Positions 3,718 through 64,000 of a DNA stretch of 64,000 nt are shown piece by piece. Under the pieces are notes generated by a model. That model was not told the origin of the DNA. It saw nothing but the letters and a program-made list of their open reading frames with translations, and ran no database searches. The position numbers and the translations under genes are program-made. Source of the stretch: Symbiodinium natans (Eukaryota; Sar; Dinophyceae; Suessiales; Symbiodiniaceae); contig CAJNDS010002096.1 of NCBI GenBank assembly GCA_905221605.1, positions 491,001-555,000 of the forward strand, read 5' to 3'. Every line of letters starts with the position of its first letter. The stretch's first letter is position 1.

Positions 3718-4215
3718 ATCTTGGTTCCCGGGACCTGGGCCCGTGGGTTTGGGGAGCCAGGCAATTAGCACTCATTAGCACGGCCCTATACCCTGGGAAG
3801 CAAGAATCCCCGCAAGACTTTTTTGGGAGTCTTGGTTCTTGGTTCTTGGTTCCGGCCGTGTTAATTAACACGGGGCCCGTGTTAATTGACACGGCCCCAC
3901 ACCCCTGGGAAGCAAGAATCCCCGCAAGACTTTTTTGGGAGTCTTGGTTCTTGGTTCTTGGTTCCGGCCGTGTGAATTAACACGGGGCCCGTGTTAATTG
4001 ACACGGCCCCACACCCCTTGGGAAGCAAGAATTCCCGCAAGGTTTTTTTGGGATTCTTGGTTCTAGGTTCCGGCCATGTTAATTCACACGGGGCCCGTGT
4101 TAATTAACACGGCCCCACACACCTGGGAAGCAAGCCCCGCAAGATTTTTTGGGAATCTTGGTTCTTGGTTCTTGGTTCCGGCCGTGTTAATTAACATTGG
4201 GCCTGTGTTAATTAA
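3718..4215. repeat. about 110-bp tandem repeat with nested palindrome
   Basis: Four to five copies; unit starts near 3791, 3903, 4015 and 4121. Each unit has a G/T-rich half with a TTGGTTCTTGGTTC run and a palindromic half in which CGTGTTAATTAACACG-type arms sit on either side of GGGGCCC. Copies are 85-95% alike, far younger than the satellite just upstream. Confidence 0.9.
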
Positions 4216-5539: not shown

Positions 5540-8500
5540 GTCGAGAGTTACTAGCAGTTCAGTAAGATGTGAAGTAGGGCATTCTTTGCACGGCCGATTG
5601 CATGTTTATTCCGGCGCGCATTCGAATCATCTTGGTTGCATTGCATGTACATGGACATGTCTGCTTTGCTCAGAGCTGGCTGCCAGGTTCTGACCTCCAT
5701 AACTTTTGCAGATGCAACTGCAGGTGATAAGGCGCGCCCGTACCACTGCTACTTGTAGAGGGCTCAAAAGTTGGGATTGCAAGAAGGCGCACGGAGTGCA
5801 CGACAAGCGTGACTAAATTCAGCACCAATGCACGAAAGCGGGCGAGGCGTCTCAAAGTTCTGGGACTGCCAGGGAGTGGAATATCAAATGATGCCACGTG
5901 CTAAGAGAGGCAGACCGAGGCCCACGGAGAGTTCCCAAGCAGACCCCGAAGGTGGTGACCTGCACTCCAGAGGAAGGAGAACAATCTACAGTAGCTAGAT
6001 GATTGACATGCTAGTCGCACACACATGGGAAGGACGCCGTTGAAAATGTGAGAAATATTGTGAGAAATACTTCAAGAAACAAAAGACGAAGATGCACATG
6101 GAAATGCGATGTTCCAGGGTGGCAAATCACTGCCTGCTGTGCGGCCGTTGGCTTGTGTCACCCCGTACGTTGCGAAGTGCGGAACTCCGAGATTGAGGCA
6201 CGCTTCGCAAGTAGCAGCTCGAAACTATGTGATGACAGGCGATCTTCATCAACAGCAAGGATTCTCAGACCTGTCACGGTGTGAGGCCGGACAAGGAGGC
6301 CATCTCTCTGCGTTCGGGATGTGCTATAGAGCAACATAGGAGTGTGCTCCAAACGGTCCAGCCTGAACTTTCCCCACGATAGTTTCAATTCTACAAAAAC
6401 GCTTGAACTACGTTTTTGCATTTAGCCACTCAGCCCCACCCTGATTTTTTATGCCCGGAGCCCCAGGTTGGCTTTGGTGAAGCGCACTTCTCCTTCTCCC
6501 AGCTGGGCGTATATCTGCTCTGCTACCGAATCTCGAATCCGCACATAGAAAAAGCCTCGCGCCATCTTTCCTTCGATTAATGGCTGCACGCGCGGCCCTT
6601 TCATCTGCCTCGGCCGGGGGCACACTGGGCTGAGGAGCACAGCACTGACCTCCAGATCCCAGAGAGATTGACCTTCTAAGATGGACCCTCACATCCAAAG
6701 CCTTAAAATGAGCGAAACGCCAGGTTCAGGGCTTCATGGTTTTTTCTGAGTCTAAGACGGCCTTCTTAAGGTCTCCCTTTGGGGGCGGGGGGGGTAGCGG
6801 GCGGCAGTGATGATTCTGATACTCCTTCGGCCCGAGGCCTCAGCGCATTAACACAGGCCTACCGGCCTGCAATTGTGACAAAACCACAGGCCTGGCCAGG
6901 ATGTCATGTTGCAAGAAGCAGGAACATGAGTTCTGGCGAACAGGTCCCCCCTCTCCCCCGGCTAGCAGACACCATGAATTGACCTAATTGACTTGCAAAC
7001 TTCAAGGATCAGCTGGTGCCGCTTGGTCCGCAGCGAACTGATTGTTTGGTCCATTAGCCGGGAGCCGGGGGGCACTAGCCTGATGAGCCCCTAGCCGAAA
7101 CTGCGCCACTCAACAATGGTTGCAACATCTTGCACTAGCCAGAGCATTGAGCAGCCTGCATTAATTCTCAACATCCCAAGGCGCATGACTCTGTTCTCCA
7201 GAGCGGCTTCAACCTCACTGTGAAGACTCCAGGTGTTACAAAAGACATGACACTTATCTGCATGGAGTGTAGCCTCCATCGGAATGATGGGAATTAGGCC
7301 AGATGACATGCCTTCAGCAAGGAGTCGAGCAGCATCTTGTCGCCCCAAGAGCATTCGGAATTGTCTTGACAAAAAAAGGATTCGACCCTTCGAAAGCAAA
7401 GGGGGCAGCCTGGATTGTTCTGCACTGCAGCTGGTGGCTTTGCTGCAGAGGGCATCAGCTGGGGCCGCTGTCCTGCACAGGCATCTTGAACAGCCGTACC
7501 GCTCTTGCTGGATCTCTCAAATGCCCGTCTCAGGTTCCACACTGCTCCATGATGAATTCTGGCTCATGCCAAGCATCCTACATAATTCACAGAGGACCTG
7601 AAGCTGCAAGCAAATGCACCTGCAGTTTGGGCCTTTTGGCTTCGGCTGCTGGTTTCCTGCTCGGAGTCGCGGCCTCCATCCCATGCCACAGTGCTGCGGT
7701 CGTGCCATTCTTGTGCTGGTTTCCCTCTTCACGCATGCTTCGGTGTCACATGCCACGTGCCATCGGCTTACACTCCCCTTCCTGGTGCAACCCTCGACAG
7801 TACGTCATGCGCCGCTCTCACACTGGATAAGTAGGAGTTGGCCAGTGCATGGAGCTCGGCTTTGCATGTGCTGCTTTTCTGGCAGGAGTTGGTTTCAGAT
7901 GCAGTTGGAATGCGGAGTTGAAGCCTCCTGCGTTGCATGGCCGCAGTACATGGCAGCATCGCATAAGAAGTCCTGCAAGCAAAGAAAGCACTGCGTGATG
8001 AACCCAAAATGAGGTGCGACGTGGACAGGGCCACTGCAGGGTCTGCGGACATTTGTGCTGCTGCGCCAGCGGCCAAGAATTTTCAATCGTGGCTTGCTGA
8101 CATTTTTAGATCCCGGCCATACAGTAGTCTCCCCTGAGCTCCCAGGAAGTGTCCAGGAAGACCATCCCTGTGCTGGTGACAGTCGCGAGAATAGCTGTGC
8201 CCTCCAGCTGAAAGCTGCTGGCTGCTGGACATGCACATCCCAGACCAGGATATCGGAGGCTGAGACTAGCTCCAGGCTCTTGTTCACGCATGCTGATGTC
8301 TGGCGAGAAGAGCCAAAGCTGTCCAAATCTATCGTTCACCATGGCACGCGCGCAGCAAAGTGTGCATTGCCACATCTGCGAGATTCTGCGAACCAGAGTG
8401 CCGACAAGTCTGACATTTGCTGACATGCCTGGCTGAGAGCGTAGGTCTCGACCTCTCCTGGGAGAAGCGGCGTGGTCTGCCTCCAAATGCGACATATCAT

Positions 8501-8940
8501 CTGTTACCATGCACACAAGACGGGCTCATCTATTGAACAGGTGTTCTGCTGCTTGTGCTAGAGGCTGCGTCTGCCGTGGCTTCCAAGCAGAAGGTCAAGC
8601 GACAAGAAAAGGTAAGCGAGCCCAGTCAGGCTGTGCACGATCGCATGCTCCTCACTCTTGATGGAGACGTCCAATGCGTAGCAAGAGACGAGACGGAAGC
8701 GCGAATGGTCAGCCGTTGACATGTGGCTTGTGATGAATCTTGGCACTCAGGGACGGGGAAAATTGTCCGCAGCTTACACCATCCAGAGCCGACGACAACA
8801 TGGACCAGGGCAAGTGCTGTTGGTCACTCGGCATGTGCAATGCGAAGCCATTTGGAGATCGAGGTTAGTCGGTGGCGGCTTGATCCTGACCCCACTCCTT
8901 GGCGTTCGGCCAGCAGCCTGAGTCATGAACTTCATGAACC
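5540..8940. other. no gene recognised
   Basis: Open frames on both strands reach 175 codons (7303-7830, + strand) but overlap equally long frames on the other strand and carry no recognisable motif. A G-rich run lies at 6780-6796. Undetected short exons are possible. Confidence 0.3.
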
Positions 8941-42500: not shown

Positions 42501-43153
42501 AAAATCGCATGCCGTCCTCATCCCTTGCGTTTTGAGTTTTTGCAAAGAGGTGGACCAGGTACTTTGTGGCAGTTTCCACCATGCACTTGTGCGAAATATT
42601 TGGTGTTGCATGATTTACAAGGGGATAAGGGGGTTGCGATTAGGGTACTGTAATCTCCCCAGAAAGCAGCCTTCAGCTTTGGCGGGTTTGTGTGACTGTT
42701 TCGTTTCTTTGCGGCTAGAGTCGGCTAGAGTGCGAGGGTTGGGGGGTCAAGCGGTCAAAAGAGTTACTCTGCGTCTCTGTGTTCGTTTCCGGCACAGTAA
42801 ACGCGTGCTGCGACACAGCCTGCCAGCCTGCCAGTCGAAATAATGTACTCTTGTCGGCATGGTCGAGTTGACCATGCGTATCCGTGCGTAGAAGGCTTTC
42901 CTTGCTAGAGCATAGACTGGCATAGACATGCAGATCAGCGGTGCAGGGTGGACTCCACCTCCCTGTGCTCGTGTGCGTCAGCCCGTTCATGAGCAACCTA
43001 GCACAGGTCATGAAGTGCCGGCTTCCATGCTAAGGCGGAATGGTTGCACACTATCTTCGTTTAGCCCGTTTCATGCCACAGGTCACTATTGCCGTGTTTT
43101 CTTCCCGCAGGCTCGAAGACCATGGCAGAATGTTCCCCTCTTGACCTGTAGCC
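36570..43153. other. no gene assigned; several weak coding patches
   Basis: Patches with protein-like text but no recognised family: about 40590-40680 (+), reading DITVDWEGDVVYVHLTFTNE; about 41815-41960 (+), reading EVITPYAVDAYSYSLNRSYQ then FGKNVVLATCIGPSFG; and about 41085-41160 (+). They may be exons of one + strand gene upstream of the transporter. The rest holds short overlapping frames on both strands and nothing repeated at scale. Confidence 0.3.
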
Positions 43154-43860
43154 ATGCTATCGCCTTGGAGCGTGCTATTCGGGGTAGTCTTCCAGCATGC
43201 GCTGGCCTCAACAGTGCACTGCAACGCCAGTGATGCCAGTCTTGCTGTGGCTGAGAGCATGGAGTGCACGGACTCCTGGCGACGCAGTGCTGATGGAGAC
43301 AACGTCCTTGCCGTGGAGCTTTTACAAACCCACATCAGTTTCTCCAGCAAGGTCTCCGAGGTCTCCGTCCAACTGCCGTCACCACAGATTCTTCGCCTAG
43401 CAGGCGGCAGTGTGTCTTTGGTATGTTTCCTTTTGCTTCTAAATCTTGGCCAAGTAGACACGCTGGTGAGTGCGGCTATTTTCTTAGATCTGTTCATGAC
43501 AACGATCCTTACCCCAGTGGCGCCGACGCTTACGCCAAGCTACCAACTTATTGCACTGCTCACGAGCTCCAAGAACGTCGTCACTTGCCTGATCGCACCC
43601 TTCGCTGGCCGTTTCATCGATGGAAATGAAGCGAAATCCATGCAGCTTGGGATGCTGTGCGCGATGCTATGCACTCTAGGCTTAGCAGTCGAAACTCGGT
43701 CGAAGGAGAGGTTGCATCAGGCTTGGAAACGTGATGAAAGCGACGAACTTTCAACTCTCTGGATATGACCCAGTGCAGAACTGCTGCGTGCTTTGCCCTT
43801 TCCAAGGTGAAGAACTACTGGTTCTGGCTAGCAATACGCTGTATCAGTGGATGCTCCACA
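43154..43860 (+). CDS. major facilitator transporter, vesicular amine transporter-like (5' exons)
   Basis: Exon 1 is 43154-43687 from ATG; exon 2 is 43807-43860, joined in phase 0 over a 119-nt GT...AG intron. The N-terminus is a signal-peptide-like segment (MLSPWSVLFGVVFQHALAS) and a Cys-bearing loop. TM1 follows at about residues 83-110 (SAAIFLDLFMTTILTPVAPT). Next is ALLTSSKNVVTCLIAPFAGR with FIDGNEAKSMQLGMLCAMLC, which matches TM2, the A-loop (G-R-x-x-D-x motif position) and TM3 of DHA1/SLC18-type carriers. Exon 2 (NYWFWLAIRCISGCST) gives TM4 with the R-x-x-x-G pattern. Exons for TM5-12 were not found; they must lie downstream or the gene is broken. Substrate unknown: resemblance to monoamine and acetylcholine vesicle antiporters does not fix it. 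Confidence 0.65.
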
Positions 43861-53493: not shown

Positions 53494-54364
<871 letters not shown>

Positions 54365-54672
54365 AGCCGCCACGGATCAGACGGCCGGGCACTTGCATCC
54401 TGGTAAACCGGGCTTTGGGCGCAACTGCTGTCCTAGAGGTTCAACCAGTCCTCAGGGAAACGTAACAGCTTGTGCCTTACTGTGAGCCATGGTGAGCCGC
54501 GTTATTTGTGCTGTCTGATCTGCCGGGTCCCAATTCCCGGGCCTCCTGAGCTCAGACATTGCAGTCAGCCATTCAGGAGGTAGGCGAGAGGTGTTTCCAC
54601 TGCTCCGCGAGGTGGAAGGAGTACTCACGAAAAGCTATCTCAGTATCGCTCGGCGTGGGGAAAAACTAGCGG

Positions 54673-57600
54673 ATGGCGGTACCTTCTGAGCACCCCAACA
54701 ATTTTCGGAGCATTCGTAAAGTTGCATTCAGGAGAGCTTGCACGTTAGTTTCACGCACCCAACAAAGCATTTCTTATAGGCGAGGCATCTTGACACCTGA
54801 ATATGTTGCACGGAGTGGATTGAATCCCCCTGCCCAACCTGCAGAAGGGGGCTCCACACAGCAGACGCCTGCACCTAAGCGCACAATGCCAAGATCCAGA
54901 GGGGGAGCAATGGCTAAGCCACTCCGAGTACTCACCTGGAACGCAGGGCACTTAGGACAACAGCAGTGGGCCGAACTTCGCACGTGGCTTCGCACGGCAG
55001 CAGACAAATATGATGTTATTGCCCTGCAGGAGACACACTGGCAGGAAACCACCGAATTTGAGGTGGAGGGCTGGCACTGTGTTAGCTCTGCCAGCAAAGG
55101 ACAGGCGAAGGCCACCCGGGCTAAGAAAAAGCCAAATCCGAGCACAGAAGGAACGGGACTGGCACTGCCAGACGCCCAATCTCATGCCCTGCATGATGAC
55201 AAGCGAGCAGATGGAGTGATGGTCCTGACTGCCCCGCACATTCCAAAAGACACGGTCAGATGGAAAGAGCATCAGAAGGGACGTGTCCTCGAGATAGTCT
55301 TCCAGTGGAAGGGAGCTCGAGCACACGTTGTGACAGTATACCAGCACGTATGGTCGACCTCAAAAACTGCACAGAAAAACAGAGAAGACAGATCCACCAC
55401 CCTCGCTGCTCTGTCCCGTGCCATCCGAGGTACACCGCAGAGAGACACCCTGATAGTGCTGGGCGACTTCAACTCGACCTTGCAGTCGAGCCCAGGAGCG
55501 GTTGGCTTGTGCACTCCAGGACCTCCTCCACATCGAAAGACCGAAGACGAATACTTTCAACGGCTGGTTCAGGGACATGGATTAGTTGCGCTGAACACCT
55601 GGTCTTCAGGGAAAGGATTTACTTTCCGCACAGCCACAACGCAATCTCAATTGGATTACATCCTAGTCCCGAAGACTATCTCCCGAAGTGATGCTAAGAA
55701 GAGCAAGCCAATCGACAATTTTCCGCTCGGGAAATGGAAGAAGGGTGGCCATCTCCCCGAGGAAGCACAAATACGCCCAATGAGGCACTGGCAGCTCCCC
55801 CCTCCCCCCCCTCCCCCCCCGCCCTATGACAAGCATGCTCTTGAACATGCAGTGCGTTACAATCATCCTAAGGCACAAGAAATGAAGGAGTGGGTCGCTG
55901 ACCAACTTCAGCAGCTGACTCCTCCGGACATGAATGAGGTCAATGACATCCTCATACGTGCTTCAGAGAGGTACTTTCCGCGTGCCCCTAAACCTTCAGC
56001 TCCCCCGCTGAACGCCATGCACAGGGCAACTCAAAGAATGTGGTCGCGTCTGTCTGCACTGGACGAAGACTTAAGAAGCCACTCCCTGACACAGGCAGAC
56101 CACGAGGTGTTGGTCAATGACCTGGCGACTTGGCATAAGCAAGCAGTATTATTGGCAAAGAAGCAACGAGTAGCTGACTTCACAAAGGAGGTGGATCACG
56201 CAGCCAATACGGGAGATTCCTACTTAAGCCACAAAACCCTGAAAACTCTTCGACCCTGGCAACCACAGCCGAAAACACAGTTGGTTAACCAGGACGGATA
56301 CTTGATGGCAGCCGAGGAGGAACTCCTGCTGATGACAGATCATGCTAAGGCAGTGTTCCAGAGGCATGACAGGTTAGATGTGCTGGTGAATACACTGCCA
56401 CACCTGCAAGCTCCAGCATTGGCCAAGCACATCTGTTCCATACGGCCGCACAAAGCAGTACCCGAAGGTTCAGCTTCGGCAGCAGCGTGGAAACTGTGCT
56501 CAGCCTCGACAGGAGACGTGCTCCAGCAATACTGCCAGGCACAGAGCCTCAAAGCTGAGCACTGCTCAGTGGATTCCTCAGTGACACTTTCAGCACCGCT
56601 GAAAGATACTGACCTCTGCTTTATTCCCAAGCCGAATAAGCCACCAAACAAGCCCACTAATCTCCGCCCACTAGGCATTATACGACCAGATGGCAAAGGA
56701 TTGGCAGGAGCATGCAGGGATCTGCTAGCTCCCTACACGTCTAGCTACCTAAAGCCAGTGCCTCAGTTTGCCTATCAGCCTAGGAGAGGGCTTTCGGATG
56801 CCCTGTCCAGAGTCTCGCAACACACGCGCGAAGTCAGGCATGCCTGCGCACAAGCCAGACTCAGCAGACACAGCCAGCATGCAGGCCATGCCAAGCCAGA
56901 ACTAGTAGGGGGCATTTGCTTTGCACTGGACCTTTCTCAAGCATTCGACATGGTGCGACGACAGGACCTCATGGACACCCTGCAGGAGGCCAATGTCCCA
57001 ATCGCGGTGCAGAACTTAGTAGCGTCTTTGCACACAGACAGTCGCTATAAAGTCAGATCTCAGCAACGGACAAGTGAAGTAGAATCGACTACAGGAATCA
57101 AACAAGGATGTAAGCTCGCCCCCACTCTCTTCTCGATGCTCACAGGCAAGCTCTTTAAGGAACTATCTACAGTTGTGGGCAAAGAAAGGATGCAGCAATC
57201 CCTCACAGGCTATGCAGATGACATGACGATCCACCACCCCATCAATAATTGGGAAGACCTGCTAAAGGCTCACCAAATGATAGCAGAGTTGCTCCGCATT
57301 GTTCGAAAGTACGGCTTTAAGGTGAACCCAGAGAAGTGCCACCTGATGGTAAAACTCATAGGTACTGCCTCCTCCAGAGCACACAAACTCTTCAGCCGAG
57401 TTCACAAAGATGCACGAGGCAACAAGCATCGGTTATGGAGAATAGGTAGCACGAAAGCCCAGGAGTCATTTCCACAATCTCACTCTTTTGAGTACCTAGG
57501 TGCGTACGTCTCTTACGGCAATCAGGAAAAACTGAGCCTCGCACATCGCCTGCAAGAAGGCAACGCCAAACTTCAACAAGTTCGCAGATATGTTCACAAC

Positions 57601-59726
57601 AGGAGACACTCGGGGCCAAAGAGCAGACTCAAGATTTGGTTCTCCACAGTCTGGGCCACTGTCTCAGCAGGCCTTGTAGACATAGGCCTTACGGCAGATA
57701 CTGCTAAACAGCTGCGAGGATGGTTTGCCAGAAAAATTAGGGCAGTCCTGAACAGACCGGTCCATCTCACAGGAACATCCACCGAGCGCCTATTCGAGGA
57801 GTTCTCGCTCAAAGACCCAGTGCAGATCCTGCGAGACAGACAAGCGAACCGAGTCACATCCCTACAAGGACGGATCTGGCAGGCAGGGCAACCCCAGTCT
57901 GCACTGCAGAAGGAAGCGACTGAGTCACTGACTCACAAAGACATGTCGTCCCCAGATTCAGACGTGTCGTTAACAGCCCAGGCACTCCAGTATGCTGAAA
58001 TGGTGCTGCATGAATATGATGCACTGCTGACTGCGTCGAAAGCAACGGCAGAAGAACCGACTCACAAATGCCGGTTATGCTCCTTCAGCTCTAACTCAGA
58101 GCAAGGCTTAAAGATCCACGAGGTCAAAAAGCACCGAGAGCAGCTGGACAGATATGTGCCCAAATCATTCCTGCCAGAACACTCAAAAAACGGCCTCCCA
58201 ACCTGTGCAGCGTGCTCAAAAGATTTTGCACTGTGGAAAGGCCTTAAAGATCATCTTCTATCAGGGGCCTGCCCCAATCCAGACGCCCTGCGAGACTTAG
58301 ACGCCCGAACCCTTGAACTCCAAACCCAACAAGGCGCAATAGAGGTGATGCATGCCTGGTCTAAGGCATACCTAGAGGGCACGAAAGACACACATACGGT
58401 CACTCAGCTCGCCAGGCAGCATGACTCCAGGCACTTCGTGCAACACTGTGTGCTCTGCGGTTTCTGGACTCCTGATCATACCAAGGTGAAGTCCACATTC
58501 ACCAGGAGCACCGCAAGGCTTGGGACGCCCTGCACACCGAAACGGCTGTGCAGTGCCGGAAACTCGGGACCGAAATCTTTAAGGGCAGCTCTTGCCCATA
58601 CTGCAGGAAGCCAGTCACTGACAGGCGCAAACACCCAGAACAATGCGGCGTGCTCTTTCAGATCATCATGGGCGATTCATTCCTCCATCAACACAGAACA
58701 ACGACAGGACCGATCCAAGCCTTCTTCACCAAAGCTGCATCACGCCCTAAACCGAAGCAGAAACAACACCAGCAGCAGTGCACAACCCCGTCTACACCTA
58801 AGAAGCCAACAGGGCAGCTCCAAACCCCTCTCTCCTTCTCATCTAACCGTTCTGACTCGTCACAACCAGTGAGCGGCTCTTCTTTCTCTCATGCCCACCC
58901 AATTCCCTCATCTTCCTCTCCCCTCCCCTCCTCTCCTCCTGCCGCTCTCTCAGTCCTTTCACGGCTCCAGCTGAAGAATACCTCTAACTACTGCTATGTT
59001 AACGCCACAATTTTATCGCTGCTGTCGACCTCTATTATTGATCCGAACCTGCGCTCCCTACAAGCTCTCCACACCCTGCTGATAGGCCCGGAAGGCACAG
59101 CAGGTCCTTCCGCCCTCAACGTAGTAAACTCATTCCAGCTCAGGAACTTGCTGCCACGATGGCGCTTCGATGGCACACAACAGGACTCAGCGGAGTTCCT
59201 ACAGTGCTTACTCACAGCAGCCTCGGACAGCCCTCTCACACGCAGATGGGCCACAGTCGACCCAGCATCGGGAAGGCTGGCTGATGAGGGAGGCCCCATC
59301 GTAATGCTGCTACAACATTCAACTAGCAGCACGCTGCAGTCCTTGATAGATGCCTGGTCAGTAACCCCTCCTGACTCCGCACTGATGGGGCAGCAGACGC
59401 ACGCCATCCTTGCAGTAGCCAGATTCACAGGGGCAGGTAAGAACCACCACCCAGTCACTGCTATTAATGGAGATCTCACAATCCCAGTGTTACAGGGCGG
59501 AGTTATTAGCAGAGAGCACGCTTTTGTTCAGTCTTGTATTTTCCACATAGGACCCTCCCCACACAGTGGCCACTACCGCACTATATGGAGGTCATCGCCC
59601 ACCTCGCCCTGGCAGTCGACCGATGACCAGCGCAGCTCTCAGCGAGCTACGGAATCAGACCAGCGGCAAGTAAGACACGGATCTTACCTCTTCTTTCTTA
59701 CCTTTCGAGCGGAAGTACCTGCATGA
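54673..59726 (+). CDS. endonuclease - reverse transcriptase - zinc finger - USP protease polyprotein (one frame change)
   Basis: Start ATG 54673. The AP-like endonuclease spans residues about 83-360: TWN (88-90), LQET with E120, GDFN (264-267) and SQLDYI (325-330). The usual SDH near its end reads GGHLP (358-362). A Pro run (375-384) follows. RT spans about 640-950: LRPLGI (664-669), FALDLSQAFD (750-759), GIKQGCKLAP (808-817), YADD (847-850), GFKVNPEKC (881-889) and FEYLGAYV (939-946). Zinc fingers: C1133/C1136/H1149/H1154, C1178/C1181/H1194/C1200, and C1259/C1262 whose His pair lies one frame back. The frame moves by -1 near 58485-58493 and stays open to TGA at 59726. There a C2HC finger (CPYC...HPEQC), a Ser/Pro-rich linker and a USP domain follow: NTSNYCYVNA with the nucleophile Cys at 58992, QQDSAEF at 59178-59198, and SGHY with the His at 59571. 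About 1,680 residues in total. Confidence 0.85.
58476..58510 (+). other. frame change inside the third zinc finger
   Basis: In the upstream frame CVLCGFWTPDHTKVK is read; one base back, VHIHQEHRKAWDAL is read. Joined with a -1 shift near 58490 they give C-x2-C-x12-H-x4-H, so the finger is whole only after the shift. The downstream frame is closed by TGA at 58473-58475, so the change must lie after it. It may be programmed, a mutation in this copy, or a sequencing indel; no classic X-XXY-YYZ slippery heptamer is seen. Confidence 0.7.
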
Positions 59727-59764
59727 GTAACGCTTTAGTGGCCGAATTGCGCCAACAGAAGTGA

Positions 59765-59832
59765 GGAGTCGTAAGAACTCCCCACCTCTCTTGAAGAGTC
59801 GTAAGCACTCTTTGCTAGAGCCGTAAGAGCTC
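59765..59832 (+). promoter_or_regulatory. three tandem hairpins with common CGTAAGM loop
   Basis: Hairpin 1: 59765-59781, stem GGAGT/ACTCC, loop CGTAAGA. Hairpin 2: 59794-59812, stem AAGAGT/ACTCTT, loop CGTAAGC, extendable by two wobble pairs. Hairpin 3: 59818-59832, stem GAGC/GCTC, loop CGTAAGA. The 7-nt loops are the same but for one base, while the stems differ on both sides so that pairing is kept. The array starts 38 nt after the polyprotein stop and ends 110 nt before the next ATG. The word CCGTAAGAGC of hairpin 3 recurs at 63663-63672, after the kinase ORF. Role unknown: RNA binding, reinitiation or packaging are all possible. Confidence 0.7.
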
Positions 59833-59942
59833 CAAACCACTGGAGCGATGCAGCAGCCTCGGCTTTGCACTGCAGCCAGAGCCTCTCAAACAACTAGAAC
59901 AACAGACTCAGCTAGAACACAGAGAGCCCGGAGAGCGTCGGC

Positions 59943-60587
59943 ATGCTTAGTCAAGACCGTCGGGATGAGCGTCAAGCTGAGAAGCGAGCACGGACATTTG
60001 GGGCGGAACAGCTACCTCGCACAGATGAAGGAGGAGAAATCCATCCACTTTCACCGACAGATCTCACCCGAGGCTTCCTGATTCATGAGGATCAGATAAG
60101 CAGACTGATGCACCAAAGCACGCTGGTGATCAAGATGACAGCCTCAGCACCACTAGCGTCTAAGCTACTCGAAGCAACAGCGCAGTGGAGGCGAGAGCAT
60201 ACCCGAGGCAGGCCACATCCTAAGGGGCCAATCTATGTGACAGTGGCCCACCAGCTACTGTCAGAACTGCAGGAGTCACAGATGCCAAACGGTGTCAACC
60301 AGAATGCCTGGTCAACATTTATGGACGTCCTCTCTGACCTGACCAAGAAGGCACTACCGAACCCCATTCTCGAACAAGAGCTGGTGCACTGTTCAGCTAG
60401 GCTGACAGCAAGAAAAACAGATGTTCTAATAGAATTTCAGCCCCACCTCATGGGCACGCTGCAGAAGCATGCCAGCATCTACGTGAGCGCCATGCAGCTT
60501 CAAGGCGGCGAACTCCTCGGCCGGCGACCGCCCGGAACTCTCTCGCGGAAGGCCAGAGGCTTGCCGATCACGTCTGAGCAAGGATGA
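59943..60587 (+). CDS. 214-aa ORF of the element, unknown function
   Basis: ATG-started ORF, N-terminus strongly charged (DRRDERQAEKRARTFGAEQL), then a region of mixed helices and strands (about residues 50-190: STLVIKMTASAPLASKLLEA, PIYVTVAHQLLSELQES, ARLTARKTDVLIEFQPHL) and a basic Arg/Gly tail (GRRPPGTLSRKARG). No family recognised. The acidic-basic balance and basic tail would fit a nucleic-acid-binding or structural protein, which is inference only. Its TGA overlaps the ATG of the next ORF. Confidence 0.6.
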   Translation: MLSQDRRDERQAEKRARTFGAEQLPRTDEGGEIHPLSPTDLTRGFLIHEDQISRLMHQSTLVIKMTASAPLASKLLEATAQWRREHTRGRPHPKGPIYVTVAHQLLSELQESQMPNGVNQNAWSTFMDVLSDLTKKALPNPILEQELVHCSARLTARKTDVLIEFQPHLMGTLQKHASIYVSAMQLQGGELLGRRPPGTLSRKARGLPITSEQG

Positions 60588-60907
60588 GCCACCCCGACAC
60601 AGAAGATCCAGCACCCTCTCAGTCTGACACTGTCAGAGCTACCATGGGACACTGTCCCAGCACGCTGCTTAAAGCACTGCTTGTTGCTCAGCTAAGGCTC
60701 CGGCAAGGCCGAAGCTTCTGGCACTGCCAGAGACTAGCAGCCATTTTTTCAGCCCTTCTTTCCACTTTTAATTCTTTCAACAGACCCAAAGCAATAGCGC
60801 GGACATCACAAAATCCCTTTGAGTGTGCACTATGGGCGTCTGTTTGTGATTCTGGCAAGCTGGCAATACAGAACCCGCTTCATGTGCAGCATGGTTATTG
60901 CAGTTAA
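60584..60907 (+). CDS. 107-aa ORF overlapping the stop of the previous ORF
   Basis: Begins at ATG 60584, sharing ATGA with the TGA at 60585-60587. The N-terminus is MSHPDTEDPAPSQSDTVRAT; then a hydrophobic-amphipathic stretch (STLLKALLVAQLRLRQGRSF). The later part overlaps the next ORF in another frame. No domain. The stop-start overlap is the main reason to take it as real; composition alone does not prove coding. Confidence 0.35.
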   Translation: MSHPDTEDPAPSQSDTVRATMGHCPSTLLKALLVAQLRLRQGRSFWHCQRLAAIFSALLSTFNSFNRPKAIARTSQNPFECALWASVCDSGKLAIQNPLHVQHGYCS

Positions 60908-61397
60908 GGGCCATGCCCCATTCCTTGAGTTCGCCACCGGAAGAGACAGTGTGGATGCAGCCACTTCTCTCCCAGTCCTCTCTCCTCTTCCTTCTTCTCT
61001 CCTGCTCTCCTGCTCCCCTTCGCTTGTTTGCACAGACTCCAGCTGCCCGAGCACAAGGCTCAAACTGCTGCTAGGCACAGCCCGGTATACCCTGCCAACG
61101 CTACAACGTGTCATGCCCTTCATTGTGGACGACAACCAATTCCCTCCGGAAAAGTACGAGTACTACTTGCGCCTCTTTCATCAGAACGTTGCAGCTCACA
61201 AACGAGAAGCTGAGCAAGCAGCTAAGCAAGCCACTTCCAGCCTGGAAAGCGTCGACGACAAGCAATCCAGCTCCACAAAGACCAAGTCGACATCGGACGC
61301 CACTGGCCCCCAGCTGACACGCCCGACACGGAAGCCGCCTTCTCCTCCGAAAGCGCGGTCCAAGCAGCAGCCGACAACGCACTGGCGACCGAAATAA
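60882..61397 (+). CDS. about 171-aa ORF with coiled-coil and basic tail, unknown
   Basis: First ATG in frame is at 60882, though the frame is open from further upstream. A Ser/Leu-rich N-terminal part (about 60 residues) is followed by LLLGTARYTLPTLQRVMPFI and VDDNQFPPEKYEYYLRLFHQ, a charged helix (NVAAHKREAEQAAKQATS), and a Lys/Ser/Pro/Arg-rich tail (RPTRKPPSPPKARSKQQP) ending at TAA. The layout of a helix plus basic disordered tail resembles retroelement RNA-binding ORF1-type proteins, but no motif proves it. Confidence 0.5.
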   Translation: MCSMVIAVKGHAPFLEFATGRDSVDAATSLPVLSPLPSSLLLSCSPSLVCTDSSCPSTRLKLLLGTARYTLPTLQRVMPFIVDDNQFPPEKYEYYLRLFHQNVAAHKREAEQAAKQATSSLESVDDKQSSSTKTKSTSDATGPQLTRPTRKPPSPPKARSKQQPTTHWRPK

Positions 61398-61728
61398 GCA
61401 ATTGACAAGTGAGAGTCGCGGCACTGCCGAGCTCGCTAACACACACTGTGTGAGGCACCGGAGCGTTCCTCTTTAATTTGGCTCACGCAGCAAGACCGAG
61501 GCAACTGATTTTCAAGCCTGGCACATTTCGAAGAAAACGAGTCAAAAAGAGAGCGAGAGAACACTGACCCATGATCTTAGTAAGACATTGCTGTCACTCA
61601 CCTCTGCCTCCTACCTTTCTTTCTCTCTCCTCTTTCTACTTCTCTCCTGCGATTACTGTGGCAGATCATGTTCAAAAGTTCGGTCACAGCGGCAGGCACA
61701 TTCCTCTTCAGCTCTTGTGCAGCCAGCA

Positions 61729-63486
61729 ATGGCCATGGCGGGAGCTGAGCAACGCAGCAAACAATTCCAGCTGCACGAGGACATGCTGGGCAGGATCACT
61801 GCCCTGCACAAAAGCTCCATCGCCAGGGCACTTACGGAGCCTATGGGCCAGCAAATTGGCCATGGCAACAGTGCGTTCGTGACCACGCTGGCCTACCCGA
61901 CCCCGGAGGGACATCGACTGGTCGTCAAGCGTGCAAAACAGAATCGGGAGGCCGAGATGCAAAAAGAAATTCACCGCCTACGGCGTCTCCCGACGATCCC
62001 CCTCTTTCAGACCATCCTGCACACTGAAATCGGCGCTGCGGTCATGCTCACATTGTACACAGTTGAGGAAGGCATCAAGCAGCACCTCTACCGGAAAAAA
62101 GCCCGAGCAGGATCGACAACCACCTTGCAGACTATCCCCAGCACTGCTGAGGGGGACAAGGATGAGGCACCAGGACACTGTCCTCCTGCCCGAATCCCCT
62201 TTTCAGCATGGAATGAAGACGGCACTCCGGTATACCTGCCAAACCCACTCCAGGCGGAGGAGCATCAATGGTACGACAAAATGGACCAGAGGCACATGAA
62301 AGAGCTCTTCGACACCATCGCTGAGGACATGCAGTGCGCCCTCTCAGTGCTACACCAGCACGGCATCATCCATGCGGACATTCACCTGGGCAACATCATG
62401 TCGTCGCAGTCACTAAGCCACACCAGCCCACAGTGGGTCCTCATTGACTTGGGCGACAATGCGGCAGAGGCCCTTTACTCAATACAGGAAGGGTACGGGG
62501 CGCAAGTCAGAGGAGGAGACCTTCACCGGCCGCCAAGGGTGGACAAGTCGCAATACCACACGGGCAACGGCGACCTCTACCGCCTCTCGCTGACGCTCAG
62601 CAAGCAAATCTTCCCGCTTCTCCTCCACTACACTACAGGTCCAGTGGCTACCATGGGAGCCGACATACCCACGGGAGCGATCTCCAGTGAAACTGCTGAT
62701 GACATGCGACGGTGGGTTACCCAGGCAAAGGCGGAGACACCCCCGGCACACCCCACCTCCATGTGGCCATCGGGATCCTGGCTGAAAAGCGCTAAGAATC
62801 TCATGCTGGTCCTCAAGGTCAGCCTGTGGGACAAGGACGGCAACCCGGTCACCTCAACGCTTACGATCCAACCCCCCATGACAGACGCTGAACGTACTCC
62901 CCAGGAGTGCCTCAGAAGCAATTTCTACGGCAATGCCAACGGCAGGATGGTAGAGGAGGCTCAGTCTTCCAAGAACAAGGGCACGGGCAGCTGGGAGCGC
63001 ACGGCTATTTCCGCCAGATGGACCCTCATGTGTGACCTGAAGACAACCGGCAAGTCCTACCTGAAGGTCAACCAGACAGTCTACCCGTACAAAATGTACG
63101 GGAACAGCAACGGCCGCCTTGTGTTGGAAACGGGCCCACCACCAGCAACGACGGCCAGCCCGGTGCCCTCCAATACAGGAGGACAGAAGAGGGTTAGAGA
63201 CGCTCCAGCCCAATTCGACTACGAGCACTTGTTGATGTCAAGAGGACAAGGCATCTGGGCTGATCCTCCTCCTCCACCGGCGGACGCGAGCGCCAGCTCA
63301 CCTCCAGCGCCAGGCACACCAGAACTTGAGCTTCCACCTCTTCCACTACTACCGACGCACACCGGCTCCATGATGATGAGCAACGCCGACATGGTCATCC
63401 TCAGCACCTGGCTGGCGGCGCTGCCACCTGAACAGCGTCGCATTCTGCAATGGGCGGTGTTCGCCTACTCGCAGGTGTCGCGCTGA
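61729..63486 (+). CDS. protein-kinase-like protein of the element (non-RD)
   Basis: First in-frame ATG is 61729 (MAMAGAEQ), giving 585 residues; the open frame before it has no ATG. Kinase signs in order: Gly-loop-like GHGNSAFV (61858-61881), VVKRAK with the ATP-site Lys at 61927, a helix-C-like EAEMQKEIHRLRRL, a long insert (about 62095-62290), then HADIHLGNI with the catalytic Asp at 62377 and Asn at 62392. IDLGD has the Mg-binding Asp at 62446 (DLG for DFG), and GDLYRLSLTL sits at the F-helix position. HAD for HRD makes it non-RD. HxDIHxGNI recalls atypical and aminoglycoside-type kinases as much as classical ones. The C-terminal half is novel, with a duplicated YGN[AS]NGR[ML]V motif (62930-62953 and 63101-63122), followed by a Pro-rich linker and a helical end. 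Substrate unknown. Confidence 0.7.
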   Translation: MAMAGAEQRSKQFQLHEDMLGRITALHKSSIARALTEPMGQQIGHGNSAFVTTLAYPTPEGHRLVVKRAKQNREAEMQKEIHRLRRLPTIPLFQTILHTEIGAAVMLTLYTVEEGIKQHLYRKKARAGSTTTLQTIPSTAEGDKDEAPGHCPPARIPFSAWNEDGTPVYLPNPLQAEEHQWYDKMDQRHMKELFDTIAEDMQCALSVLHQHGIIHADIHLGNIMSSQSLSHTSPQWVLIDLGDNAAEALYSIQEGYGAQVRGGDLHRPPRVDKSQYHTGNGDLYRLSLTLSKQIFPLLLHYTTGPVATMGADIPTGAISSETADDMRRWVTQAKAETPPAHPTSMWPSGSWLKSAKNLMLVLKVSLWDKDGNPVTSTLTIQPPMTDAERTPQECLRSNFYGNANGRMVEEAQSSKNKGTGSWERTAISARWTLMCDLKTTGKSYLKVNQTVYPYKMYGNSNGRLVLETGPPPATTASPVPSNTGGQKRVRDAPAQFDYEHLLMSRGQGIWADPPPPPADASASSPPAPGTPELELPPLPLLPTHTGSMMMSNADMVILSTWLAALPPEQRRILQWAVFAYSQVSR

Positions 63487-63614
63487 GCAACTCCCAAATT
63501 CGTTCGCGCAGGAAAGGGCAAGCACTGCTTAGCCGTTCACGGGACACTGTCCAGACCAAAGTACAGACTGCACTGCAGCAGTACATCAAGTACCTGTACA
63601 GACCAGACAGCTGA
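63478..63614 (+). CDS. possible short out-of-frame extension after the kinase ORF
   Basis: A second frame overlapping the kinase stop reads LSNSQIRSRRKGQALLSRSR, then DTVQTKVQTALQQYIKYLYR and a TGA. It is basic and helical and looks less random than its surroundings. It could be a frameshifted C-terminus or chance. Confidence 0.25.
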
Positions 63615-63970
63615 CCTACCAAGCCGCTGACACAGCTCACGAATCTCACCTTTCACCTTTTCCCGTAAGAGCATTCATTCCTGCCAACCACGGCAGCACC
63701 GGAAGCTAATACTTCAAGGATGCGAAAAAATATTCCCCACAGCCGCTGAGCCACAACTGACCAGCTGCCCAGCTCTCCCCCTGCAGGGCCACAAGCTTGC
63801 TGCGGACACCCTGCGTGGAGCACATCATAGCCCTCCAGCTCAAAGCACTTACGACTAGCTCACATCTCATTTAAGCAACTCTTTGCAACTAATTCACGTA
63901 GCGGCACTGCTTCTCCCATAGGATCGCTCTGGACAGAGACAGACTGAGACAGAGCCTAGCCCGCCCAGCC
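63487..63970 (+). other. inter-ORF spacer of the element
   Basis: No long ORF beyond the short one above. Contains CCGTAAGAGC at 63663-63672, identical to part of hairpin 3, but without flanking complementary arms. Confidence 0.4.
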
Positions 63971-64000
63971 ATGGCAGCCGCGCCAAGGGCCCCGTCACCA
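63971..64000 (+). CDS. possible start of a further ORF, cut by the window end
   Basis: ATG at 63971 in good context (GCCATGG) opens MAAAPRAPSP and remains open to the end. Ten codons only, so support is positional: it repeats the spacing seen between earlier ORFs. Confidence 0.3.
   Translation, partial: MAAAPRAPSP

Follow-up and report, generated by a model that had tools for sequence, protein, structure and literature searches.

A predicted C19 deubiquitinase joined to the polymerase of a candidate multi-gene LINE in the dinoflagellate Symbiodinium natans

Introduction

Long interspersed nuclear elements (LINEs) are normally lean, with one or two open reading frames (ORFs) in 4-8 kb. The Dualen/RandI LINEs of green algae encode an OTU-type protease and two endonucleases, and LINEs targeted to microsatellites were reportedly described by Kojima and Fujiwara in 2004; we know of no kinase-like ORF in the former and of no ubiquitin-specific protease (USP) or kinase in the latter. 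Another cysteine protease, Ulp1, belongs to family C48. In nematode NeSL families and in Utopia-1_TSP, an Ulp1-like protease is located at the N-terminus (PMC4640811), and the names Dualen and RandI occur in PMC3747384. Ulp1 or OTU domains have been noted in Ginger, Ulp1 in Mutator, and OTU in Helitron, and a Trichomonas vaginalis protein (XP_001314237.1) combines Transposase_11 with a Peptidase C19 domain; the same source proposes a role of the ubiquitin pathway in transposition (PMC2836005). Here, we describe a LINE-type element of Symbiodinium natans in which a USP of peptidase family C19 follows the polymerase. It is located in a stretch of 64,000 nucleotides (the window; GenBank assembly GCA_905221605.1, contig CAJNDS010002096.1, positions 491,001 to 555,000 of the forward strand), and coordinates without a copy name are those of the window.

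Results

Polymerase and protease domains of the window copy

The first part of ORF1 (54673..58490, plus strand), in a frame that remains open to 58872, encodes an endonuclease, a reverse transcriptase (RT), and C2H2 fingers. A Pfam search with the frame 54670-58872 returned RVT_1 (2.7e-27) and Exo_endo_phos (2.1e-14), which bears out the endonuclease and RT motifs read in the initial annotation from the letters alone. The APE-type endonuclease domain (PF03372) spans 54931..55692 and the RT domain (PF00078) spans 56623..57504, with YADD at 57211, both on the plus strand. When the RT was compared with PDB by phmmer, seven sequences were obtained, including the R2 protein, LINE-1 ORF2p, and one RNA-directed DNA polymerase. 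The zinc fingers that had also been announced were seen by eye as three C2H2-type fingers on the plus strand (58069..58530; starts at 58069, 58204, and 58447), and their Pfam support was weak (0.03 and 0.7).

The downstream frame (58476..59726, plus strand), which is fused to ORF1 in copy L009, encodes an intact C2HC finger (CPYC...HPEQC), a serine-rich linker, and the USP domain (58911..59723, plus strand), the last being identified by Pfam, motifs, and profile searches. Pfam matched this frame to UCH at 1e-6 with 29 bits against a cut-off of 23.9 in a search suggested by the initial annotation. The USP boxes on the plus strand are all intact: NTSNYCY at 58977, containing the oxyanion Asn and the catalytic Cys; QQD at 59178; the His of GHYR at 59568; and the Asp of TDDQ at 59619. 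Thus, the finger and the Cys, QQD, and His boxes of the earlier reading were found again, with the Asp in addition.

A single-sequence phmmer search of PDB with the window USP matched no USP. In contrast to that single sequence, a profile built from seven aligned USPs found 80 PDB sequences at E<=0.01, and the 60 listed were all USPs. All seven aligned relatives matched UCH at E<=1 (best 8.2e-20), and the score in L023 was 63.5 bits against the cut-off of 23.9. Since the relatives match UCH without exception and the profile finds the USPs of PDB, the USP match as judged by these searches is not a product of chance. N23, C28, H221, D238, and D239 of the alignment were invariant in all seven sequences, as were the Gln and the Asp of the Gln-x-Asp box; the roles that we assign to these residues are presumed from general knowledge of USPs. 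The catalytic residues were also invariant in all 19 rows of a broader alignment, from which the broken USP copies L017 and L018 were left out and stretches of N in the translations were removed. Scans of viral contigs yielded no relatives of the USP, the RT, or the USP alignment.

RT and USP of the window copy are in different frames, and the switch occurs inside the third and last C2H2 finger. At this site, a single gap separates the window from each of the eight other copies compared, and the frame of L009 has no interruption anywhere; therefore, the frame break is private to the window copy among the copies compared. Programmed frameshifting as the normal state was rejected, the frame difference being confined to the window copy in this set.

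Joining of RT and USP across copies and lineages

All genome searches covered one S. natans assembly of 759,417,921 bases in 2543 contigs. As queries, the USP frame yielded 104 matches, with 100 of 952 candidates scored, and the RT region 48, with 39 of 1584 scored; twenty stretches of about 10 kb around matches were taken for comparison. In L009, endonuclease, RT, fingers, and USP occupy a single stop-free frame of 1689 amino acids. Group 1 copies have USPs that are about 90-97% alike. Group 2 shows identities of about 63-76% in the RT and about 56-68% in the USP, and three further lineages have about 25-38% RT identity: 3a (L023, L024, and L028), 3b (L025-L027), and 4 (L032, L035, and a third place, C336). 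A single open frame encodes both RT and USP in 3a, 3b, 4, and the group 2 copies L020-L022; some of these copies contain N upstream, and the endonuclease of L022 is in another frame. Hence the assembly holds five RT lineages in which the USP shares the frame of the RT, at RT identities down to about 25%, represented beyond L009 by L022, L023, L025/L027, and L032. The RT and USP trees agreed at supported forks, with long-branch warnings and with no settled position for L032 in the USP tree. On the strength of the L009 frame and the four further one-frame lineages, the fusion of a LINE polymerase to a C19 deubiquitinase, as first proposed in the initial annotation, is supported at the sequence level.

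The initial annotation had also asked whether RT and USP are always joined. Nineteen RT copies match to the end of the RT query, and a USP-domain match lies directly downstream in 17 of them. The other two are a deleted copy, C2026, which keeps only finger and linker and whose deletion runs straight into the kinase ORF described below, and a decayed copy, C118, which keeps finger-linker remnants. C2345, which ends before the end of the query, passes into other sequence. The contrary pattern named in the initial annotation, RT copies without a USP combined with a USP elsewhere as a host gene, was not encountered among the 39 RT and 100 USP candidates scored. The separate frames in the window could be taken as a sign that a host USP gene happens to lie beside a LINE copy. 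We give this next to no credence: the downstream USP matches, the open RT-USP frame in L009 and in other lineages, and a selection on the USP resembling that on the RT (see below) all speak against it, and a chance neighbourhood was rejected in this genome on the basis of the L009 frame and the downstream matches.

USP matches of distant families were observed in same-strand pairs, about 6.27 kb apart on C669, C2192, and C2002 and about 10.5 kb apart on C1764 and C1046; this regular pairing suggests tandem elements.

Selection on the coding regions

Purifying selection, for which the initial annotation had suggested the ratio of nonsynonymous to synonymous changes (dN/dS), was found in the USP, with values of about 0.1 in the better-populated comparisons. 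Between the group 2 copies L019 and L022, dN/dS was 0.097 for the USP and 0.080 for the RT; other USP pairs ranged from 0.06 to 0.50, the high values being based on few differences, and two USP pairs between groups 1 and 2 as well as two RT pairs were saturated. Between the window and the C358 copy, the values were 0.12 for ORF1, 0.11 for the USP, 0.30 for the linker, 0.20 for ORF2, 0.22 for ORF3, 0.24 for the kinase, and 0.16 for ORF5, and those of two spacers were 1.64 and 0.72. Across all group 1 comparisons, the USP gave 0.08-0.34, the linker 0.29-0.57, and the spacers 0.43-1.81. ORF2 and the kinase-like ORF4 gave 0.10-0.25 and 0.15-0.24, respectively (eight comparisons each), and the range of ORF3, 0.10-1.53 on 3 to 9 differences, is uninformative. 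From these ratios, the USP appears to be constrained like the RT, and the linker more loosely.

The looseness of the linker bears on the idea, included in the initial annotation, that the USP serves to process the polyprotein. Polyproteins are often matured by cysteine proteases, and a serine-rich linker does separate the fingers from the USP. However, C19 enzymes cleave after the C-termini of ubiquitin, Pfam lists no ubiquitin-like domain in ORF1, and the linker is the least constrained coding part apart from the uninformative ORF3. Processing is therefore the least likely of the functional ideas, and we regard it as very improbable.

In family 3a, an ORF2 of 395 amino acids (L023:4938-6122) overlaps the ORF1 frame between the fingers and the USP. 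It is related to ORF2 of family 4 (27%, E 2.9e-13); no relation was found between the latter and ORF2 of group 1. Within the overlap, 26 of the 34 differences between L023 and L028 fall at third codon positions of ORF2, and the comparison with L024, with eight differences only, showed no trend. The ORF1 frame is open here, whereas 2000 synonymous shuffles of ORF2 broke it every time, with 9.6 stops on average; in the reverse test, 140 of 2000 shuffles of the ORF1 codons left the ORF2 frame open. An overlapping gene with both frames constrained is thus possible in this family.

Ends, target, and length of the element

In the window, a triplet microsatellite (53495..54365), of TTA and then TTG/TGT type, adjoins the 5' end of the element and is followed by an untranslated leader (54366..54672, plus strand). 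From about 54.5 kb to the end of the window, A exceeds T and C exceeds G; this skew is weak at one step at about 60.5-61 kb, and the G/C bias is weak in the first steps. The C358 copy, whose own ORF1 and kinase frames are interrupted, provides the extent of a whole unit: one (TAG)n array ends at 677, the unit runs to about 15,589, and (TAG)n follows, giving 14.9 kb in total. The 5' two thirds of the element lie within the window, and the remainder extends past its end. The group 2 copy L019 measures about 8.5 kb between arrays.

The first 308 nucleotides of the C358 unit were matched in full by L009, L012, L013, L015, and L022 (83% in L022) and in two pieces by L019 (86% and 83%), and its last 355 nucleotides matched L019-L021 at 75%. 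The 5' junction could be located in 8 of 12 copies, and all eight abut a triplet microsatellite, of TAG type in seven and of TTG type in the window. All four 3' ends that were read run into TAG repeats, which are short in L020. The flanks of six copies with a 5' junction (436-600 bases) showed no mutual similarity. In blastn comparisons of the first against the last part of an element (3 kb each in the C358 unit, 2.5 kb in L019), no long terminal repeats were detected at E<=1e-3. Taken together, the copies show features of a LINE: the type of RT, the APE-type endonuclease, dispersed copies with unrelated flanks, a constant 3' end, 5' truncation, and the lack of long terminal repeats.

A hairpin in the 3' untranslated region (UTR) is common to groups 1, 2, and 3b. 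It is located at L036:411-448 and also occurs in L019 (twice), L020, L021, L026, and L027. The seven occurrences represent five distinct sequences, and the repeated ones, L020 (identical to one in L019, L019a) and L026 (identical to L027), were left out of the alignment. All ten pairs are formed in all five sequences, and three of the ten show changes on both sides. In shuffled controls, the observed covariation score was reached in 5 of 500 cases and the number of doubly changed pairs in 25 of 500; the sample is small. Such 3' structures are used by stringent-type LINEs (PMC3747384). Rfam gave no match in window 54300-64000; in L019, L030, L036, and L022 it gave nine, all below the gathering score, eight of which were in the flank of L036 and one (E 0.69) inside the L022 element. 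In the 3' region of group 2, L019 also has two 255-nucleotide repeats that are 98% alike (7895-8149 and 8393-8647, oriented), and a related piece is located at about 14.07 kb in C358.

Downstream ORFs of the group 1 element

Downstream of ORF1, all on the plus strand, follow ORF2 (59943..60587; about 214 amino acids, without a Pfam match), ORF3 (61113..61397; 94 amino acids from an in-frame ATG, without a convincing family match), ORF4 (61729..63486), and the start of ORF5 (63971..64000), which runs past the window end into L029 and corresponds to a frame of 1067 amino acids in the C358 copy. That copy encodes ORF2, ORF3, the kinase-like ORF4, ORF5, and an ORF6. In ten group 1 loci, ORF2 and ORF3 were found in all and the kinase in nine, with the order kept. 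Between these ORFs, a pyrimidine tract with AG at 60740..60785 (plus strand) resembles a splice acceptor; it was recognised by eye with no control, and its function would be to admit a spliced leader. Further acceptor-like tracts, also seen by eye on the plus strand, precede later ORFs at about 60962-61036 and 61610-61665. The idea of trans-splicing is drawn from these tracts, because DinoSL-like 12-mers occurred only once, in the upstream flank of L016.

ORF4 contains the motifs VVKRAK, HADIHLGN, and IDLGD, and phmmer related it to ULK1 (9e-4). VKRAK, HADxHxGNIM, and IDLGD are present in the kinases of both the window and C499; in the kinase of C2047, the Lys segment is present and the alignment breaks before HxD. 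The assignment rests on these motifs, and we call the product kinase-like. For ORF5, no match was found in PDB or NCBIfam, and a DxD-like motif was seen by eye only.

In the genome search with ORF4, all 65 candidates were scored and matches were located on 24 contigs. On 17 of these, an RT or USP-frame match lies on the strand of the kinase at a distance of up to about 20 kb. Among the remaining contigs, C2235 has a USP on the opposite strand, C808 ends at the kinase, and C320 and C2211 are partial and weaker; the C808 fragment had no match to C358. Two RT-less kinase copies, on C2059 and C402, start mid-element at (TAG)n in the manner of 5'-truncated LINE insertions. On account of these two copies, the kinase is placed inside the reverse-transcribed unit. 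Kinases with 42-64% identity adjoin the diverged copies on C499 (with RT and USP) and C2047 (where only a USP was seen), which suggests that the kinase is no recent pick-up. In C1841 (about 50-66 kb), USP and kinase are separated by other sequence of about 16 kb, perhaps a nested insertion, and the stretch just after ORF3 is unlike that of other copies.

The group 2 copies L019-L022 gave no match to the downstream ORFs of group 1 in the stretches compared, as would be expected if the kinase and later ORFs belonged to a cluster of host genes that had spread through segmental duplication or one 3' transduction. Against this stand the mutually dissimilar 5' flanks of the six copies, the match of the 3' end and much of the 5' leader of the 14.9-kb unit to the 8.5-kb group 2 element, the two truncated kinase copies that begin at (TAG)n, and the kinases beside C499 and C2047. 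We consider such a spread highly unlikely, and segmental duplication of a host cluster was rejected on the basis of the flanks, the shared ends, and the truncated copies. The data would also fit an old transduction that selection has since maintained.

Elsewhere in the window, a 112-bp tandem repeat of four copies (3779-4213) was observed, and a frame at 43145-43768, in which hydrophobic segments like those of transporters were seen by eye, may be a host exon.

Discussion

We think it rather probable that the locus represents a long non-LTR retrotransposon, probably polycistronic and targeted to (TAG)n, the polymerase of which carries a USP acting at its own ribonucleoprotein and insertion site. 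The 5'-truncated copies indicate that copying of the unit starts at its 3' end, with a single RNA as template. Expression of the downstream ORFs would depend on dinoflagellate trans-splicing at the pyrimidine-AG acceptor sites, the RT may recognise the hairpin of the 3' UTR, and the endonuclease would nick (TAG)n, followed by target-primed reverse transcription. Tethering to the polymerase would keep the USP at work on the element's own particle and at the insertion site. There it could remove ubiquitin from the polymerase and avert its proteasomal loss, and it might also deubiquitinate repair or chromatin proteins at the nick. In this manner, the element may interfere with the host's protein-tagging systems to copy itself.

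Several observations weigh against this interpretation. The whole L009 protein scored 18.7 bits for UCH, under the cut-off of 23.9, and Pfam listed no UCH match for the L027 stretch. Frameshifts, stops, or gaps are present in the window copy and in most of the group 1 copies compared. Higher dN/dS values, mostly on few differences, were obtained for the USP (0.50 in L025-L027, 0.43 in L019-L020, and 0.34 with L015) and the RT (0.48 in L012-L014), and the lowest value of a spacer was 0.43. ORF4 matched Pkinase with 26.5 bits, under the Pfam cut-off of 31.7, and the match of ORF5 to Gly_transf_sug, a GT32-like glycosyltransferase profile, was below the cut-off and not significant (E 0.11). One RT-less copy that starts mid-element, on C2069 (L041), has no TAG array within 3 kb.

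The initial annotation had left a choice between the element's own proteins and a host factor as the USP substrate. The main substrates might be host proteins remote from the polymerase, such as histones, PCNA, or a silencing factor, with the polyprotein serving as a ride to the nucleus together with the element. USPs often act on chromatin and repair proteins, and the kinase-like ORF hints at wider manipulation of the host. A published proposal also ties transposon-borne ubiquitin/SUMO proteases to repair (PMC2836005). However, all five lineages examined have the USP joined to the RT, an arrangement that speaks for action in cis, and we hold the host-directed alternative to be rather unlikely. 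Action of the USP at the particle and insertion site remains our preferred reading.

More tentatively, as an idea that we find plausible and would not yet rely on, the giant LINE lineage of about 15 kb could be a multi-gene selfish element with its own post-translational toolkit: a polymerase deubiquitinase, a kinase-like protein, and perhaps also one that resembles glycosyltransferases. Its genes would be expressed as a trans-spliced polycistronic unit, and one RNA would serve to copy all of them into (TAG)n. If so, a retrotransposon would act on both ubiquitin and phosphate signalling of its host, much as large viruses do. A LINE of 14.9 kb with a kinase-like gene under selection would bear on the carrying capacity of LINEs and on the origin of the large LINE content of dinoflagellates. 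The presence of C19 at the polymerase C-terminus in at least five lineages, with purifying selection where measurable, suggests that ubiquitin is a control point of LINE copying, and the fusion offers a direct way to test this control.

How far the element departs from described systems can be judged by comparison. The Dualen/RandI LINEs, like the present element, are protist LINEs with a deubiquitinase-like cysteine protease, which is of the OTU family there and of C19 here. With the microsatellite-targeted LINEs it shares insertion into simple repeats, the target here being (TAG)n. Literature searches confined to open-access papers, with Repbase outside their scope, showed no C19 domain in a LINE, which is no proof of novelty. 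Ulp1 in LINEs and C19 on a DNA transposase are already known. XP_001314237.1 resembles the present element in the fusion of a C19 deubiquitinase to a mobile-element enzyme in a protist host, but it carries a DNA transposase, whereas the present element is a retrotransposon; through another enzyme family, our element would support the idea that ubiquitin/SUMO proteases of mobile elements serve transposition (PMC2836005). The NeSL and Utopia-1_TSP elements come close in having a ubiquitin/SUMO-type cysteine protease within the LINE polymerase protein, and several of their relatives are target-specific, including the (TG)n-specific Togen families (PMC4640811). They combine an N-terminal Ulp1 with a restriction-like endonuclease, whereas the present element combines a C-terminal C19 USP with an APE-type endonuclease and extra ORFs.

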